Shown in pieces: positions 199 to 8,078 of a stretch of 8,078 nt of DNA (the first letter of the stretch is position 1; each line of letters opens with the position of its first letter). The stretch covers positions 1 through 8,078 of the forward strand of contig URIN01000049.1 in assembly GCA_900547915.1 (NCBI GenBank). Reading direction: 5' to 3'. The notes beneath the pieces were generated by a model. It saw nothing but the letters and a program-made list of their open reading frames with translations, was not told the origin of the DNA and searched no databases. This stretch comes from an uncultured Clostridium sp. (GTDB lineage Bacteria > Bacillota > Clostridia > Oscillospirales > Acutalibacteraceae). A program made the translations under genes and the position numbers.

Positions 199-1245
199 GT
201 GGAAAGGTTGATAGGTGAAAGGCAAGCGGCAATATTAGCGCTGATTATTGACAGCTATATAAAAACGGGCGAGCCTATTGGCTCAAAAACCATTGCCGGG
301 CTTTTGCCCTATAAAATCTCCAGCGCAACAATAAGAAATGAAATGGCGTATCTTTCGGAACTCGGTCTGCTGGAACAGATGCATACAAGCGGCGGAAGAA
401 TTCCCAGTAAAACGTCTTTCAGATATTATGTTGATAACCTTATGATTCCTAAAATGCCTGATGAATACGAAAAGCATCAAATAAATGAATTGCTTTCCGT
501 GAACGCAGGTGATCCGGAAAGGCTGCTTCACGACGGAGCATCTCTTCTGGCTCAGGAAACAAACTGTGCTGCTTTTTATAATACCATTAGGGACAGTTAT
601 GACTGCGTTCAGGGCGCAGAACTGATACCTGCTGGAAACAATAAAGCAATGATAGTTATGCTTTCTGTAGGAGGAAAAATAAGATCATCCGTGTGCAGGC
701 TCAATTGCCCTGCGGACGATGAGTTCAGAAAACTATTTTACTTTATTACTCGCAAATATTTCACGGGCACGGCGCTCAAAGATGTAAATCTTGCGCTGCT
801 GCAGAACACAGTGCCGGATCTAGGCGCAAGGGTGTTCGATATGCTGCCCGCCCTGACAAGCCTTTGCTCACTTTGTGCCGAAGCGTATAACGGTTCTCTT
901 GAGTTTGAGGGAGAAACAAATCTTCTATCACACAAGGAACTTGGAAACGATGTTTACAAAATACTTTCGTTTTTCGCTTCACGATCTCAGATCCGTTCGG
1001 CAATCGAGCAGTTCGTCAAAAAAGGTCGGGATATGCAGTTGTTTATCGGTGATGAAAATCCTCATCCGATGCTCAAAAATACTGTAACCCTTGCTTCAAA
1101 ATTCAGCTATAACAACAGCCAAACGGCAGTATTAGGCATTATAGGCTCGTCAAGAATTGATTACGCAACCGTTCTTCCACGAGCTGAATATATAATGAAC
1201 ACAGTAAAAAAATATCTCCGAGAGGGAGGCGCTTCATTTGAATAA
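199..1245 (+). CDS. hrcA: Heat-inducible transcription repressor HrcA
   Basis: HrcA is the cytoplasmic dimeric repressor that binds CIRCE; in the family its folding depends on GroEL, which links repression to chaperone availability. Residues about 7-80 form the winged-helix DNA-binding region, with the hallmark SSATIRNEMAYLSELGLLEQ (41-60) followed by HTSGGRIPSKTSFRYYVD. The central part corresponds to the GAF-like and dimerization regions. The C-terminus carries LFIGDEN (281-287) and LGIIGSSRIDYATV (312-325), a variant of the usual GPTRMDY. At 348 residues it has normal family length. The start is uncertain. GTG at 199 is only 2 bases after AAGGA (192-196), whereas the in-frame TTG at 208 (protein starting LIGERQ, 345 residues) is about 11 bases from AAGGA, 5 bases from GGTGG (198-202), and better matches HrcA N-termini. 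It is first in the operon, and its end overlaps grpE by 8 bp. Confidence 0.96.
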   Translation: MERLIGERQAAILALIIDSYIKTGEPIGSKTIAGLLPYKISSATIRNEMAYLSELGLLEQMHTSGGRIPSKTSFRYYVDNLMIPKMPDEYEKHQINELLSVNAGDPERLLHDGASLLAQETNCAAFYNTIRDSYDCVQGAELIPAGNNKAMIVMLSVGGKIRSSVCRLNCPADDEFRKLFYFITRKYFTGTALKDVNLALLQNTVPDLGARVFDMLPALTSLCSLCAEAYNGSLEFEGETNLLSHKELGNDVYKILSFFASRSQIRSAIEQFVKKGRDMQLFIGDENPHPMLKNTVTLASKFSYNNSQTAVLGIIGSSRIDYATVLPRAEYIMNTVKKYLREGGASFE

Positions 1246-1789
1246 AAAAGAAAAGGATACCGAAAAAAAGCCAAAGCAGAAAGCCACGGCTGAAGAGAAA
1301 ACCTCAAAAGCAAATGAAACAGAAGAAAAAGAGGAAGATGTAAAAAAAGAAGAAAAAGATCCTGTTCAGCAGGAACTTGATGAAACAAAGGACAGATTGC
1401 TTCGTTTGACTGCGGAATATTCAAACTATAAAAGACGCAGTGAAAAGGAAAAGCAGGATGCTTATGTCTACGCAAAATCAGACACCCTTAAAGCTCTGCT
1501 GCCTGTTATAGATAATCTTGAAAGAGCGCTTGCAAACGAAACAAAAGATTATGACGCTTTTAAAAAAGGCGTTGAAATGACTTTCGATAATCTCACTTCA
1601 ATCCTTGAAACGCTTGGCGTTGAGGTCTTTGGTGAGCCGGGAGACATTTTTGATCCTAATCTTCACAACGCTGTTATGCATGTTGAGGATGAGGAACATA
1701 AAAACGGAGAAATAGTTGATGTTTTCCAGAAGGGGTATAAAATAGGCGACAAGATCGTCCGCCCCGCAATGGTTAAATCAGCAAATTAA
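1238..1789 (+). CDS. grpE: GrpE, nucleotide exchange factor for DnaK
   Basis: GrpE is a cytoplasmic dimer that releases ADP from DnaK and so drives the chaperone cycle. Residues 1-42 are a very charged K/E-rich and probably disordered tail. About 43-85 form the long coiled-coil helix (LDETKDRLLRLTAEYSNYKRR), followed by LLPVIDNLERAL (87-98), which belongs to the helical dimer region. The C-terminal beta domain that contacts DnaK contains FDPNLHNAVMHVED (138-151) and the family signature GYKIGDKIVRPAMVKSAN (166-183). At 183 residues the length is normal. The TTG start is supported by GGGAGG (1224-1229) 8 bases upstream and by its overlap with the last codons of hrcA, which suggests translational coupling. 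No ATG lies near the N-terminus, so TTG is the best choice. Confidence 0.96.
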   Translation: MNKKEKDTEKKPKQKATAEEKTSKANETEEKEEDVKKEEKDPVQQELDETKDRLLRLTAEYSNYKRRSEKEKQDAYVYAKSDTLKALLPVIDNLERALANETKDYDAFKKGVEMTFDNLTSILETLGVEVFGEPGDIFDPNLHNAVMHVEDEEHKNGEIVDVFQKGYKIGDKIVRPAMVKSAN

Positions 1790-3670
<1,881 letters not shown>

Positions 3671-3697
3671 TAAAGCACAAGGCTTTTTCTCCATTAG

Positions 3698-3730
3698 TAA
3701 GGTGGCGGAATTTAGTATTCCGTCACCTTA
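3698..3730 (+). promoter_or_regulatory. Strong hairpin between dnaK and dnaJ
   Basis: Bases 3698-3711 (TAAGGTGGCGGAAT) pair with 3717-3730 (ATTCCGTCACCTTA) in a 14-bp stem with a single G-U pair (3705/3723) and a 5-base loop (TTAGT). No T-tract follows; the next bases are AATACGATTT. A full intrinsic terminator is therefore unlikely. The position suggests an mRNA-processing, 3'-end-protecting or partial attenuation element that sets dnaK levels above dnaJ. The pairing is seen; the role is inferred. Confidence 0.7.
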
Positions 3731-3743
3731 AATACGATTTACA

Positions 3744-3750
3744 GGGAGGA
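3744..3750 (+). promoter_or_regulatory. Ribosome binding site of dnaJ
   Basis: GGGAGGA lies 4 bases before ATG 3755, and its GGAGG core lies 5 bases before it. It is close to the ideal anti-16S complement, and it starts 14 bases after the intergenic hairpin, so the site stays exposed when the hairpin folds. Confidence 0.85.
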
Positions 3751-3754
3751 AAAT

Positions 3755-4909
3755 ATGGCAGAAGCAAAACGAGATTACTATGAAGTCCTCGGTGTTCAGA
3801 AGGGCGCAACAGAGGATGAGATAAAAAAAGCATACAGAAAAACAGCTAAAAAATATCACCCCGATCTGCATCCGGATGATAAAGAAGCAGAGGAAAAGTT
3901 CAAGGAATGCAACGAGGCATATGAGGTGCTTTCAGATCCTCAGAAAAAAGCGCGTTATGACCAGTTCGGCTTTGCGGGTGTAGACCCCAACTATGGAGCA
4001 GGTCAGGGCGCAGGCGGCTACGGCGGCGGTTTTGGGTTTGACGGCGATATTGACCTCGGTGACATTTTCGGCTCTATATTCGGCGGCGGATTTGGCGGCG
4101 GATTCGGAGGCAGCAACCCCAATGCTCCTCGCAAGGGCAGGGATATTCAGGTTAGCATAACTCTAACTTTTGAGGAAGCTGCAAAAGGCTGCAAAAAAGA
4201 GATAGAAGTTCCCCGTGTTGAGGACTGCAGCGAGTGCGGCGGCACAGGTGCCGCAAAAGGCACTACAGCTAAAACCTGTTCCAACTGCGGTGGTAAAGGT
4301 TATATAAATGTTCAAAACAGAATGGGCTTTACTGTTGTTACTCAACAACGTACTTGCAATGTATGCGGCGGTCGTGGTAAAATAATAGACACACCGTGTC
4401 ATAAGTGTGCGGGTAAAGGTAAGGTAAGGCTTAAAAAGAAACTGTCTGTTGATATTCCTGCGGGTATTGATGAAACAAGAATCATCAACCTTCGCGGTAT
4501 GGGTGACAGCGGTATGAACGGCGGCCCTGCGGGTGATCTTAAAGTTATTGTTAAAATAAGACCGCATAAATACTTCAGACGTGAGGGCTATGATGTTTGG
4601 TACGAAAAGCATGTTTCAATGGTTGAAGCGGTTTTAGGCGCAGAGCTTCAGGTTCCCACACTTGACGGCGATGTAAAATACAATATGCCGGCAGGTACTC
4701 AGCCTAATGATGTATTCAAGCTTAAAGGAAAAGGTATTCAGAGACTTAATTCTGTCGGCAGGGGAGACCAGCTTGTCAGAATAATAGTTGATATTCCTAA
4801 GAGCCTTACTTCGCATCAGAAAGAACTGCTAAAAGAGTTTGATAAATCCTACGTTGCCCCAAAAAATCCGGGCAAAGAGGGATTTTTCGATAAATTTAAA
4901 AAGAAGTAA
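3755..4909 (+). CDS. dnaJ: Chaperone protein DnaJ (type I Hsp40)
   Basis: DnaJ is the co-chaperone that binds unfolded proteins and stimulates DnaK ATPase. All four type I parts are present in order. The J-domain (about 5-70) carries the essential HPD at 35-37 in [10 protein letters not shown] Gly/Phe-rich linker spans about 71-125. A zinc-binding region holds four intact CxxCxGxG repeats: CSECGGTG (158-165), CSNCGGKG (175-182), CNVCGGRG (201-208) and CHKCAGKG (215-222). The C-terminal substrate-binding and dimerization domains span about 225-350 ([20 protein letters not shown], 235-254). At 384 residues the length is normal. It is the last chaperone gene of the operon. The prmA/rsmE genes that often follow dnaJ in Bacillota are absent; ugd follows instead. 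Confidence 0.98.
4079..4111 (+). repeat. Short tandem repeat in the DnaJ Gly/Phe linker
   Basis: The 12-base unit TTYGGCGGCGGA occurs at 4079-4090 and 4091-4102, followed by a decayed partial copy at 4103-4111. It is in frame and encodes Phe-Gly-Gly-Gly repeats (residues 109-119). The length keeps frame in 12-base steps, so slippage would change only the flexible linker. It is a normal low-complexity feature of DnaJ. Confidence 0.75.
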
Positions 4910-6239: not shown

Positions 6240-6270
6240 AAAAGCGTTCCTGAAAACGGAACGCTTTTTT
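6240..6270 (+). terminator. Intrinsic terminator after ugd
   Basis: The stem AAAAGCGTTCC (6240-6250) with GGAACGCTTTT (6258-6268) closes a 7-base loop, and the run of T residues continues to 6270. The 11-bp stem has a GC-containing core and is flanked by A and T tracts, so it may work in both directions, but only + strand genes are present here. It starts 15 bp after the ugd stop and separates the hrcA-to-ugd block from the phosphate operon. Confidence 0.9.
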
Positions 6271-6323
6271 ATGTCAAATATTATTTGAAATGAGCGAAAA
6301 ATTTCACACAAATCACATATTAT

Positions 6324-6352: not shown

Positions 6353-6454
6353 TTCTTTTATATTGTGCTGTTATATTGATAGAGGCGGCGGGAAAAATAA
6401 TACAGAGAATAAGAATAAAATATTTTCTGCACCCGCAGCTTAAAGAATATTTAA

Positions 6455-6462
6455 AAGGAGAT
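6455..6462 (+). promoter_or_regulatory. Ribosome binding site of the pstS-type gene
   Basis: AAGGAGAT, with GGAG ending 6 bases before ATG 6467, is a near-ideal site. It fixes the start so that the protein begins with a lipoprotein signal peptide, and so shows that the unusual domain order is not the product of a wrongly placed start. Confidence 0.85.
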
Positions 6463-6466
6463 TTTT

Positions 6467-7309
6467 ATGAAAAAAATAATATCGTTATTTGCGGCAGTTA
6501 TGATTATTGCAAGTATATTTGCAGGCTGTGGAGCAGGCAGCTCAACCAAAATCAATGTGATGACTCGTGAAGAGGGCTCAGGCACAAGAAGCGCCTTTAT
6601 TGAGCTTTTCGGTATTGAAACTGAGGACGAAAACGGTGAAAAAATTGATAATACAATAGTAACGGCAGAAACTACAAACAGTACCTCTGTTATGACGACT
6701 TCAGTGGCCGGAGATCCGTCAGCGATAGGCTATATTTCCATGGGTTCTCTCAATGAATCCGTGCGTGCGCTTCAGATTGACGGTGCTGACGCAACGGTTG
6801 AAAACATAAAAAACGGAACATATAAAGCTTCAAGACCCTTTAATATTGCAGTCAAAGATGATGTTTCCGAAACGGCTAAAGATTTTATCACCTTCATAAT
6901 GAGCAGCGAAGGGCAGAAAGTAGTTGAGGAAAACGGCTATATTTCACAAGGCGGCAGTGCCGCTTACAACGGAACTAAACCATCAGGCACGGTTACAGTA
7001 GCCGGATCATCTTCTGTTACTCCCGTTATGGAAAAACTTAAAGAGGCATATGCAAAGGTAAATCCCAATGCCAGCATAGTAGTTCAGCAGAGTGATTCAA
7101 CAACAGGTCTTACATCCGCTATTGACGGAGTGTGTGATATAGCTATGGCGTCTAGAGAACTTAAGGAAAGCGAGATTTCCGCAGGTCTGAAATCAACAAC
7201 CATTGCTTTAGACGGAATAGCAGTCATAGTAAATCTTGATAATCCCGTAACCTCTCTTACAAGCGAAGAGGTAAAAGCAATATACACAGGTGAAAAAACT
7301 GAATGGTAA
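6467..7309 (+). CDS. pstS: PstS-type phosphate-binding lipoprotein, halves permuted
   Basis: This is the extracellular phosphate-binding component of a Pst ABC transporter. Residues 1-20 are a signal peptide (MKKIISLF...) ending in FAGC, with Cys21 as the likely lipid-anchored residue; Phe at -3 is a slightly unusual lipobox. The block that is C-terminal in ordinary PstS comes first: REEGSGTRSAF (34-44, with the phosphate-contacting Arg-Gly-Ser-Gly-Thr elements), AGDPSAIGYISMGSL (81-95), NGTYKASRPF (116-125) and SSEGQKVVEENGYI (146-159). A short linker (about 160-173) leads to the block that is normally N-terminal: VTVAGSSSVTPVMEKL (176-191), QQSDSTTG (207-214), DIAMASREL (224-232), ALDGIAVIVN (247-256) and LTSEEVKAIYTGEKTEW (264-280). 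All core motifs appear once, in swapped order, in one intact frame of 280 residues. Its stop overlaps pstC by 7 bp. Phosphate specificity is inferred from the motifs and pstC. Confidence 0.9.
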   Translation: MKKIISLFAAVMIIASIFAGCGAGSSTKINVMTREEGSGTRSAFIELFGIETEDENGEKIDNTIVTAETTNSTSVMTTSVAGDPSAIGYISMGSLNESVRALQIDGADATVENIKNGTYKASRPFNIAVKDDVSETAKDFITFIMSSEGQKVVEENGYISQGGSAAYNGTKPSGTVTVAGSSSVTPVMEKLKEAYAKVNPNASIVVQQSDSTTGLTSAIDGVCDIAMASRELKESEISAGLKSTTIALDGIAVIVNLDNPVTSLTSEEVKAIYTGEKTEW

Positions 7310-8078
7310 CTAATAAGATAAAAGATTATGTAATGCGTGCGGTGTTTTTCATTGCCGCCTGTCTGAGCGTTTTTGCAGTGTTGCTTATCTGTTGGTTCAT
7401 ATTTTCAAATGCTTTTCCCGCTATAAACGAAATAGGTGTAGGAGAATTTTTGTTTGGAACGGTCTGGAAACCACTCAACAATAAATTCGGCATTTTCCCT
7501 ATGATAATAGGAAGTCTTTATGTTACTGCGGGCGCAGTGGCAATAGGTGTTCCTGTCGGAGTTTTGTCAGCTGTTTATATGGCTAAATATTGTCCGAAAA
7601 AAGTCTATAAAATAATGAAGCCTGCAATAGATCTTTTGGCTGGCATACCGTCTGTGGTATATGGATTTTTTGGTCTTGTTGTGATAGTGCCTGCAGTCAG
7701 GCAGCTTTTCGGCGGCGGAAAAAGTGTATTTACAGCATCCCTTTTGCTTGCAATTATGATATTGCCGACTGTTATAAGCATTTCAGAAGCATCTATCAGA
7801 GCTGTGCCGCAAAGCTATTATGAGGGAGCGCTAGCTCTTGGTGCCACGAAAGAACGCTCGCTGTTTGGTGTTTCTCTTCCCGCCGCAAAATCAGGCGTTT
7901 CAGCGGGCATAATTCTCGGTATAGGCAGGGCAATAGGGGAGACTACCGCAATTGTTATGATAGCGGGAAATCAGCCGATAATACCGCAAAGCATTTTTAG
8001 CGGAGTGAGAACACTCACTACCAATATTATTCTTGAAATGGGTTATGCACAGGATCTGCACCGTGAGGCTCTTATAGC
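7303..8078 (+). CDS. pstC: Phosphate ABC transporter permease PstC (partial, 3' end missing)
   Basis: PstC is one of the two membrane subunits that carry phosphate across the cytoplasmic membrane with PstA, powered by PstB. The visible 258 residues have a first membrane helix at about 12-34, further hydrophobic segments at about 64-92, 107-132, 142-163 and 198-222, and the family segment DLLAGIPSVVYGFFGL (110-125). The cytoplasmic EAA loop that contacts the ATPase is EGALALGATKERSLFGVSLP (174-193), followed by GIGRAIGETTAIVM (206-219). The frame is open to the last base; with a usual family length near 300 residues, some tens of residues are missing. ATG 7303 overlaps the pstS stop (ATGGTAA) and has AGGTGA (7288-7293) 9 bases upstream inside pstS, so translation is probably coupled. 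pstA and pstB would be expected beyond the window. Confidence 0.95.
   Translation, partial: MVTNKIKDYVMRAVFFIAACLSVFAVLLICWFIFSNAFPAINEIGVGEFLFGTVWKPLNNKFGIFPMIIGSLYVTAGAVAIGVPVGVLSAVYMAKYCPKKVYKIMKPAIDLLAGIPSVVYGFFGLVVIVPAVRQLFGGGKSVFTASLLLAIMILPTVISISEASIRAVPQSYYEGALALGATKERSLFGVSLPAAKSGVSAGIILGIGRAIGETTAIVMIAGNQPIIPQSIFSGVRTLTTNIILEMGYAQDLHREALI

Follow-up and report, generated by a model that had tools for sequence, protein, structure and literature searches.

The 8,078-nucleotide stretch analysed here (the window; positions 1 to 8,078 of contig URIN01000049.1, from an uncultured Clostridium sp.) carries on its forward strand a gene for a PstS-type protein whose two halves stand in the reverse of the canonical order, an arrangement that our analysis supports as a circular permutation. 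The gene, recognized from the list of open reading frames (ORFs) and from profile and structure matches, occupies positions 6467..7309, starts with ATG and encodes 280 amino acids; a sequence resembling a ribosome-binding site, AAAGGAG, was read at 6454..6460. A signal peptide with a lipobox-like FAGC (6467..6529), for which a lipid-anchored Cys21 is predicted, is followed by the canonical C-terminal half (C-half; residues 28-161, 6548..6949), here first in the chain, by a linker that bridges the former C- and N-termini (residues 162-171, 6950..6979), placed from the spacing over 92 ORFs, and by the canonical N-terminal half (N-half; residues 172-280, 6980..7306), here last; both halves were delimited by matches to PDB chains and by relatives. 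The REEGSGTR phosphate-loop motif (residues 34-41, 6566..6589) was located in an alignment of permuted and canonical rows, and the GSSSVTP loop (7004..7024) and the DIAMASR motif (7136..7156) in an alignment of 50 permuted rows. The pstS end, where the new C-terminus lies at the cut loop, overlaps the start of pstC by seven bases (7303..7309): the ATG of pstC stands at 7303 and the stop codon of pstS at 7307-7309, so that the window protein ends at Trp280. The pstC gene (7303..8078, same strand) continues past the window edge; its product scored 268.7 bits in a profile search with TIGR02138 (cut-off 196.45), and such joint encoding with PstC, here with overlap at the stop codon, is a feature of pstS genes.

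From its motifs alone, the sequence-only reading had placed the part that ends a canonical PstS ahead of the part that begins one, an order that profile matches and PDB chains confirmed. Along the window protein the motifs run REEGSGTR (34-41), AIGYISMGSL, SSEGQKVVEENGYI, GSSSVTPVMEKL, DIAMASREL, ALDGIAVIVN and, at the C-terminus, IYTGEKTEW. The profile search that had been recommended, for two partial matches in reversed order, returned exactly these with both PF12849 and TIGR02136. The former matched in two stretches (1.2e-35, 124 bits, above the Pfam gathering score of 27 bits), the best of which joins residues 167-280 to profile positions 3-123 of 267; the latter also matched in two (4.9e-54, 183.5 bits, below the curated cut-off of 206.6), the best joining residues 164-280 to positions 29-152 of 295. 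With either profile, the best stretch is the profile's first half placed at the C-terminus of the protein. The closest canonical protein (L135) reached 282.3 bits with TIGR02136 in a single stretch, and the low score of the window protein accompanies its split match. The canonical PDB chains 1twy and 4q8r each aligned in two pieces with their order swapped, which shows that the motif order had been read correctly, and 4gd5 matched in two stretches. Instead of a single collinear domain with the N-half before the C-half, as in canonical PstS, the window protein has the halves reversed. A collinear full-length match, named beforehand as the result that would speak against a permutation, was obtained among solved structures only with another permuted protein, PDB 4h1x, which aligned end to end, C-half then N-half. 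The permutation is further supported by a mirrored control, run with the closest canonical protein. The order of secondary-structure letters, native versus rotated, gave the same ratio of 0.89 both ways and so favours neither. The list of 50 entries obtained with the canonical model did not include PDB 4h1x, an absence from which no inference was drawn.

The structure 4h1x is that of PstS2 (SP_2084) from Streptococcus pneumoniae TIGR4. Canonical PstS proteins of the TIGR02136 type (1twy, 4gd5, 4q8r) resemble the window protein in both halves, in the binding motifs and in the neighbouring pstC, but carry the halves in the opposite order, and their Trp-to-Ile stretch is unbroken where the permuted chain is open. 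The part of the 4h1x entry title that was available mentions no permutation, the code 4H1X was not found in the literature searched, and no title or abstract start found in that search, which did not extend to subscription papers and preprints, describes a permuted PstS. The permuted lineage is on record structurally but was not found described as permuted in the literature searched. A comparable case is Tp0684 (TpMglB-2) of Treponema pallidum, a glucose-binding protein that, according to the available part of its report, is circularly permuted, binds its sugar and keeps a ligand-induced shape change; that part also places this type of permutation in Gram-positive relatives, and the authors bring up a possible connection with membrane tethering (PMC4990184). 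Like the window PstS, TpMglB-2 is, on this partial account, a natural circular permutation of the binding protein of an ATP-binding cassette (ABC) transporter; compared by description, it differs in binding sugar, in its type I / cluster B fold and in its cut, which moved the first three N-lobe strands towards the C-terminus.

A scan of genome contigs found at least 514 relatives among at least 596 stretches, of which the best 80 were kept, and every one of these 80 loci holds an ORF with the C-half followed by the N-half. Seventy-eight belong to Bacillota and one to Chloroflexota, with one unassigned (by class, 70 Clostridia, two Negativicutes, one Erysipelotrichia, one Anaerolineae and six unassigned), a tally that is not a fair sample of taxa because the 80 are the top-scoring matches. 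Near-identical proteins occur on many contigs. By domain order, the distinct ORFs of 203 loci comprised 114 with the C-half first (C-N), 55 with the N-half first (N-C), three with an N-half only and one with a C-half only. On a plasmid of Treponema saccharophilum a permuted pstS is accompanied by pstC, pstA, pstB and phoU. The suggestion that permuted relatives may exist in other Clostridia was thus true but too modest, as they are also found in Negativicutes, Erysipelotrichia, a Chloroflexota genome, this Treponema plasmid and S. pneumoniae, whose PstS2 has the permuted order too. That misassembly, or chimerism between neighbouring genes, produced the swapped order as an artefact deserves practically no credence: such errors do seem to occur in the family, given that the metagenomic homologues P0096, P0097 and P0103 look like permuted/canonical chimeras, but the order recurs in all 80 kept loci and in near-identical proteins on many contigs, and the crystallised protein 4h1x has it as well, so that a solved structure and independent genomes already refute this explanation.

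The canonical order is nevertheless commoner than the permuted one in even draws of genomes. For the phylum of Clostridium sp. CAG:678 (G001, locus L001), TIGR02136 exceeded its cut-off in 94 of 149 genomes, and a near-whole match to the permuted profile was counted by eye, among the matches listed, in 10 of 299 genomes versus 119 with any match at 1e-20. For the phylum of Flexilinea (Chloroflexota), the seed genome was the only one of 151 to match at 1e-50, which suggests transfer. When 17 genomes with a permuted gene were searched with TIGR02136, none gave a match over the cut-off; permuted pairs only were seen in 13, and the others were Thermoclostridium caenicola (G007), which also has a near-full canonical gene, G013, with a near-full match inside a 796-residue frame, G017, with a partial match in a 473-residue frame, and G003, with a weak partial match. 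An Anaerotignum metagenome-assembled genome (L012) has two tandem permuted pstS ORFs (319-1263 and 1365-2327) ahead of pstC, and very divergent permuted copies on long branches were noted at L037 (1490-2419) and L150 (608-1561), the former being a second gene without an adjacent PstC. Five of 12 matching 'phage' records (H21-H25) are one-piece permuted matches on unannotated 'Bacteriophage sp.' faecal contigs, one of them (H22) marked UNVERIFIED; these contigs are perhaps bacterial DNA.

Both gene types were compared in 200 genomes of the family of Mediterraneibacter agrestimuris (Lachnospiraceae). With P0096 as query at 1e-40, 117 genomes matched in 127 rows, which were sorted into permuted and canonical by query range. 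Permuted genes were found in 58 genomes and canonical genes in 60, the single genome with both being counted in each, and 83 had neither. If the two were independent, 17.4 genomes with both would be expected (Fisher p 5e-10, a value to be read with the caveat that related genomes are not independent draws and that weaker canonical genes fall below the threshold). A recheck with TIGR02136 covered 20 of the 58 permuted genomes, a non-random choice of mostly top-scoring rows: G408 has a full-length canonical gene and G464 a near-full match inside a 782-residue frame, and in the other 18 no full-length collinear PstS match was found besides the permuted gene, four of these scoring 20-28 bits in a weak, partial match. 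In this family the two gene types seem to substitute for one another. A reversion from permuted to canonical in Lachnospiraceae, suspected from the genome rows, was not upheld by the tree.

The residues expected to hold phosphate are conserved in both orders. R34, S38, G39 and T40 of REEGSGTR, G180, S181 and S183 of the GSSSVTP loop, and S229 and R230 of DIAMASR are invariant in all 50 permuted rows, and R170, S174, G175 and T176, the canonical equivalents of the first four, in all 26 canonical rows. The PstS motifs GSxS, SxxG, SR and RxxxSGT, whose residues we take, from E. coli PstS, to be the phosphate contacts, are likewise invariant in 50/50 permuted and 26/26 canonical rows. Judging from the sequence, the gene very probably encodes a PstS-type protein with its C-half first, predicted to be two-lobed and anchored by a lipid; this protein likely hands phosphate to the transporter of the overlapping pstC. 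Alternatively, a permuted binding protein of PstS fold might take another oxyanion as ligand or serve as a sensor. The window protein stays under the NCBIfam PstS cut-off (183.5 vs 206.6 bits), the permuted copies in two annotated records are named only 'substrate-binding domain-containing protein', and no PstC-like ORF was found near L062, all of which would fit such a role. The low score, however, accompanies the split match and the binding-motif residues do not vary; 87 of the 92 permuted ORFs are followed by PstC, with pstC-pstA-pstB-phoU after the gene in L171 and L172; some sources name the relatives P0102 and P0116 phosphate-binding; and 18 of the 20 rechecked permuted genomes had no other full-length collinear PstS match. 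We consider another ligand or a sensor role highly improbable.

The cut had been placed between ITNW and the strand before REEGSGTR, rightly so when the Trp-to-Ile region is compared between canonical and permuted rows. In all 26 close canonical rows the invariant Trp and the next Ile bound an unbroken stretch of 12 residues with GG inside, typically WKEVGGxDAPI. Permuted chains end 0-11 residues past the last Trp, mostly 4 or 5, in 113 of 114 ORFs (L051 ends without a late Trp), and past the spacer the N-terminus restarts at the Ile strand that precedes REEGSGTR. A missing loop GG had been considered as a marker of the cut, given that GG is present in 26/26 close canonical rows and absent from the tails, and was dropped after a recount: GG follows the last Trp in none of 113 permuted tails and stands between the two halves of 46 out of 55 canonical ORFs, and it occurs in the ten residues before the Ile strand in 24 of 114 permuted ORFs, where it is possibly a loop remnant. 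Our confidence in the permutation is unchanged because the order of halves, the clade and the chain end after Trp are independent of GG. The distance from the end of the first half to the start of the second is 10-13 residues (median 11; 92 ORFs).

In PstS the old termini lie close together, both on lobe 1, and the cut loop is on lobe 2; the fold can thus survive such a cut while the lipid tether shifts to lobe 2. The permutation would have bridged the old termini with roughly ten linker residues and broken the chain anew within the Trp-to-Ile loop, which separates the first helix of lobe 2 from the strand leading into the REEGSGTR loop. Both phosphate loops would thus continue to come together in a single cleft, with lobe 2 taking over from lobe 1 as the lobe that carries the tether. 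A lipobox pattern of our own making matched 87 of the 92 permuted ORFs and 43 of the 48 canonical ones. A changed tether length was discarded as an effect of the permutation, since the spacer hardly differs between the two types.

Trees were built with the halves of each protein set in one order and rows thinned by identity. A single branch with a starred support of 98 separates 56 permuted from 38 canonical rows, L081 being left out, and the permuted rows also form one clade in the C-half tree (96, starred). PDB 4h1x groups with the two long-branch rows from L150 and the second copy of L037, beside the main permuted clade. A PstC-like ORF lies within 1500 bases downstream of 87 of 92 permuted ORFs, and 7 of 48 canonical ORFs lack such a partner. 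Median identity to the window PstC is 65% for the permuted partners versus 42% for 41 canonical partners, and in the PstC tree 36 permuted-partner proteins are set apart from 31 others by one branch (support 92). Certain positions of the window PstC (e.g. residues 44, 173, 184, 234 and 254) are nearly fixed in 85 permuted-partner PstC proteins, and most of 17 near canonical partners have other residues there; these positions possibly reflect co-adaptation, or descent alone.

Tandem duplication and trimming had been put forward as the route to the permuted gene, but no credible intermediate was found. Among 120 homologues listed, P0096, P0097 and P0103 have the order C-N-C (415-421 amino acids). 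P0096 and P0097 have residues 1-256 in common and then carry two different canonical-type tails, a pattern more readily explained by chimeric assemblies or recombinants than by intermediates, and the last C-half of all three is nearer to canonical PstS (48-56% vs 42-49% identity); they were rejected as duplication intermediates and are likely chimeric assemblies. The C-N-C order was absent from the distinct ORFs of the 203 loci, and none of the 127 Lachnospiraceae rows matching the C-N-C query spans all three parts. A 467-residue frame on the minus strand of L204 (G510) was rejected as a permutant: it is a canonical PstS in which an internal stretch of 104 residues is repeated exactly and in frame; the repeat may be the kind of duplication from which a permutation could start, or an assembly error. 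Duplication remains a plausible route.

Read from these sequences, the simplest account, and a likely one, is a single permutation after which receptor and permease moved together: one event in a canonical Bacillota PstS, possibly by tandem duplication and trimming, would have produced a gene later inherited or transferred jointly with its PstC. A more ambitious version, which we consider less likely than not, is that one ancient permutation founded a separate Pst lineage, in which a PstS tethered by lobe 2 is co-adapted with its own PstC clade as a matched pair; this lineage would then have ousted the canonical system from a large part of the Lachnospiraceae and reached other phyla as well. 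Several points weigh against the main reading, that of a permuted PstS with a single origin. Adding L081, a canonical row on a long branch, raises the number of changes in the tree from one to two, and the N-half tree by itself likewise needs two, although one clade is not rejected there (approximately unbiased (AU) test, p 0.723); all trees are of the 'quick' kind, and the support of 92 for the PstC clade is unstarred. No duplication-route intermediate was found in the genomes searched, and the loop glycines, by the counts given above for canonical ORFs and for the front spacer of permuted ones, are not a clean marker of the cut. The spacer between Cys and domain is nearly the same (median 16 residues permuted vs 18 canonical), and the shift of the tether between lobes is inferred from general knowledge of PstS topology.

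Repeated, independent permutation at this one loop, or the fusion of half-genes of different parentage, would account for the two changes in these two trees and for the meeting long branches of L150 and the second L037 copy beside 4h1x. We think this unlikely, as the permuted rows are one clade in the larger set and in the C-half tree, one clade is not rejected for the N-half, and the PstC partners also cluster. We give somewhat less than an even chance to the possibility that the permutation has no functional effect, having become fixed by chance, a single time, in an ancestor and having left tether, hinge and docking without meaningful change. The scarcely altered tether length speaks for neutrality, as does the mutual replacement in one family (58 and 60 of 200 genomes, one with both), which is what equivalents would be expected to show; presence in three phyla and the clustering of PstC partners hint, indirectly, at coupling instead.

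A widespread natural permutant of PstS, a binding protein familiar from textbooks that also serves as a scaffold for biosensors, offers a ready test of chain order and tether position in a Venus-flytrap receptor, with one family supplying a natural set of permuted and canonical receptors, each with its own PstC partners. The permuted proteins also expose a blind spot of annotation, since the curated PstS model splits on them and leaves the window protein, like all 17 genomes searched, under its cut-off.

Over the window as a whole, no Rfam match was obtained at gathering scores, and a promoter scan found 5 candidates versus 3.9 expected. Between pstS and the gene upstream of it, a hairpin (GCGTTCC-TGAAAAC-GGAACGC) followed by a run of T was noticed by eye at 6244-6271 and is likely a terminator, although it was absent from the output of a program scan of the window. 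The upstream gene resembles UDP-glucose dehydrogenase (TIGR03026, 327.9 bits, cut-off 189.8), and a row of ORFs at 199-4909 presumably represents hrcA, grpE, dnaK and dnaJ, which they resemble by motifs.
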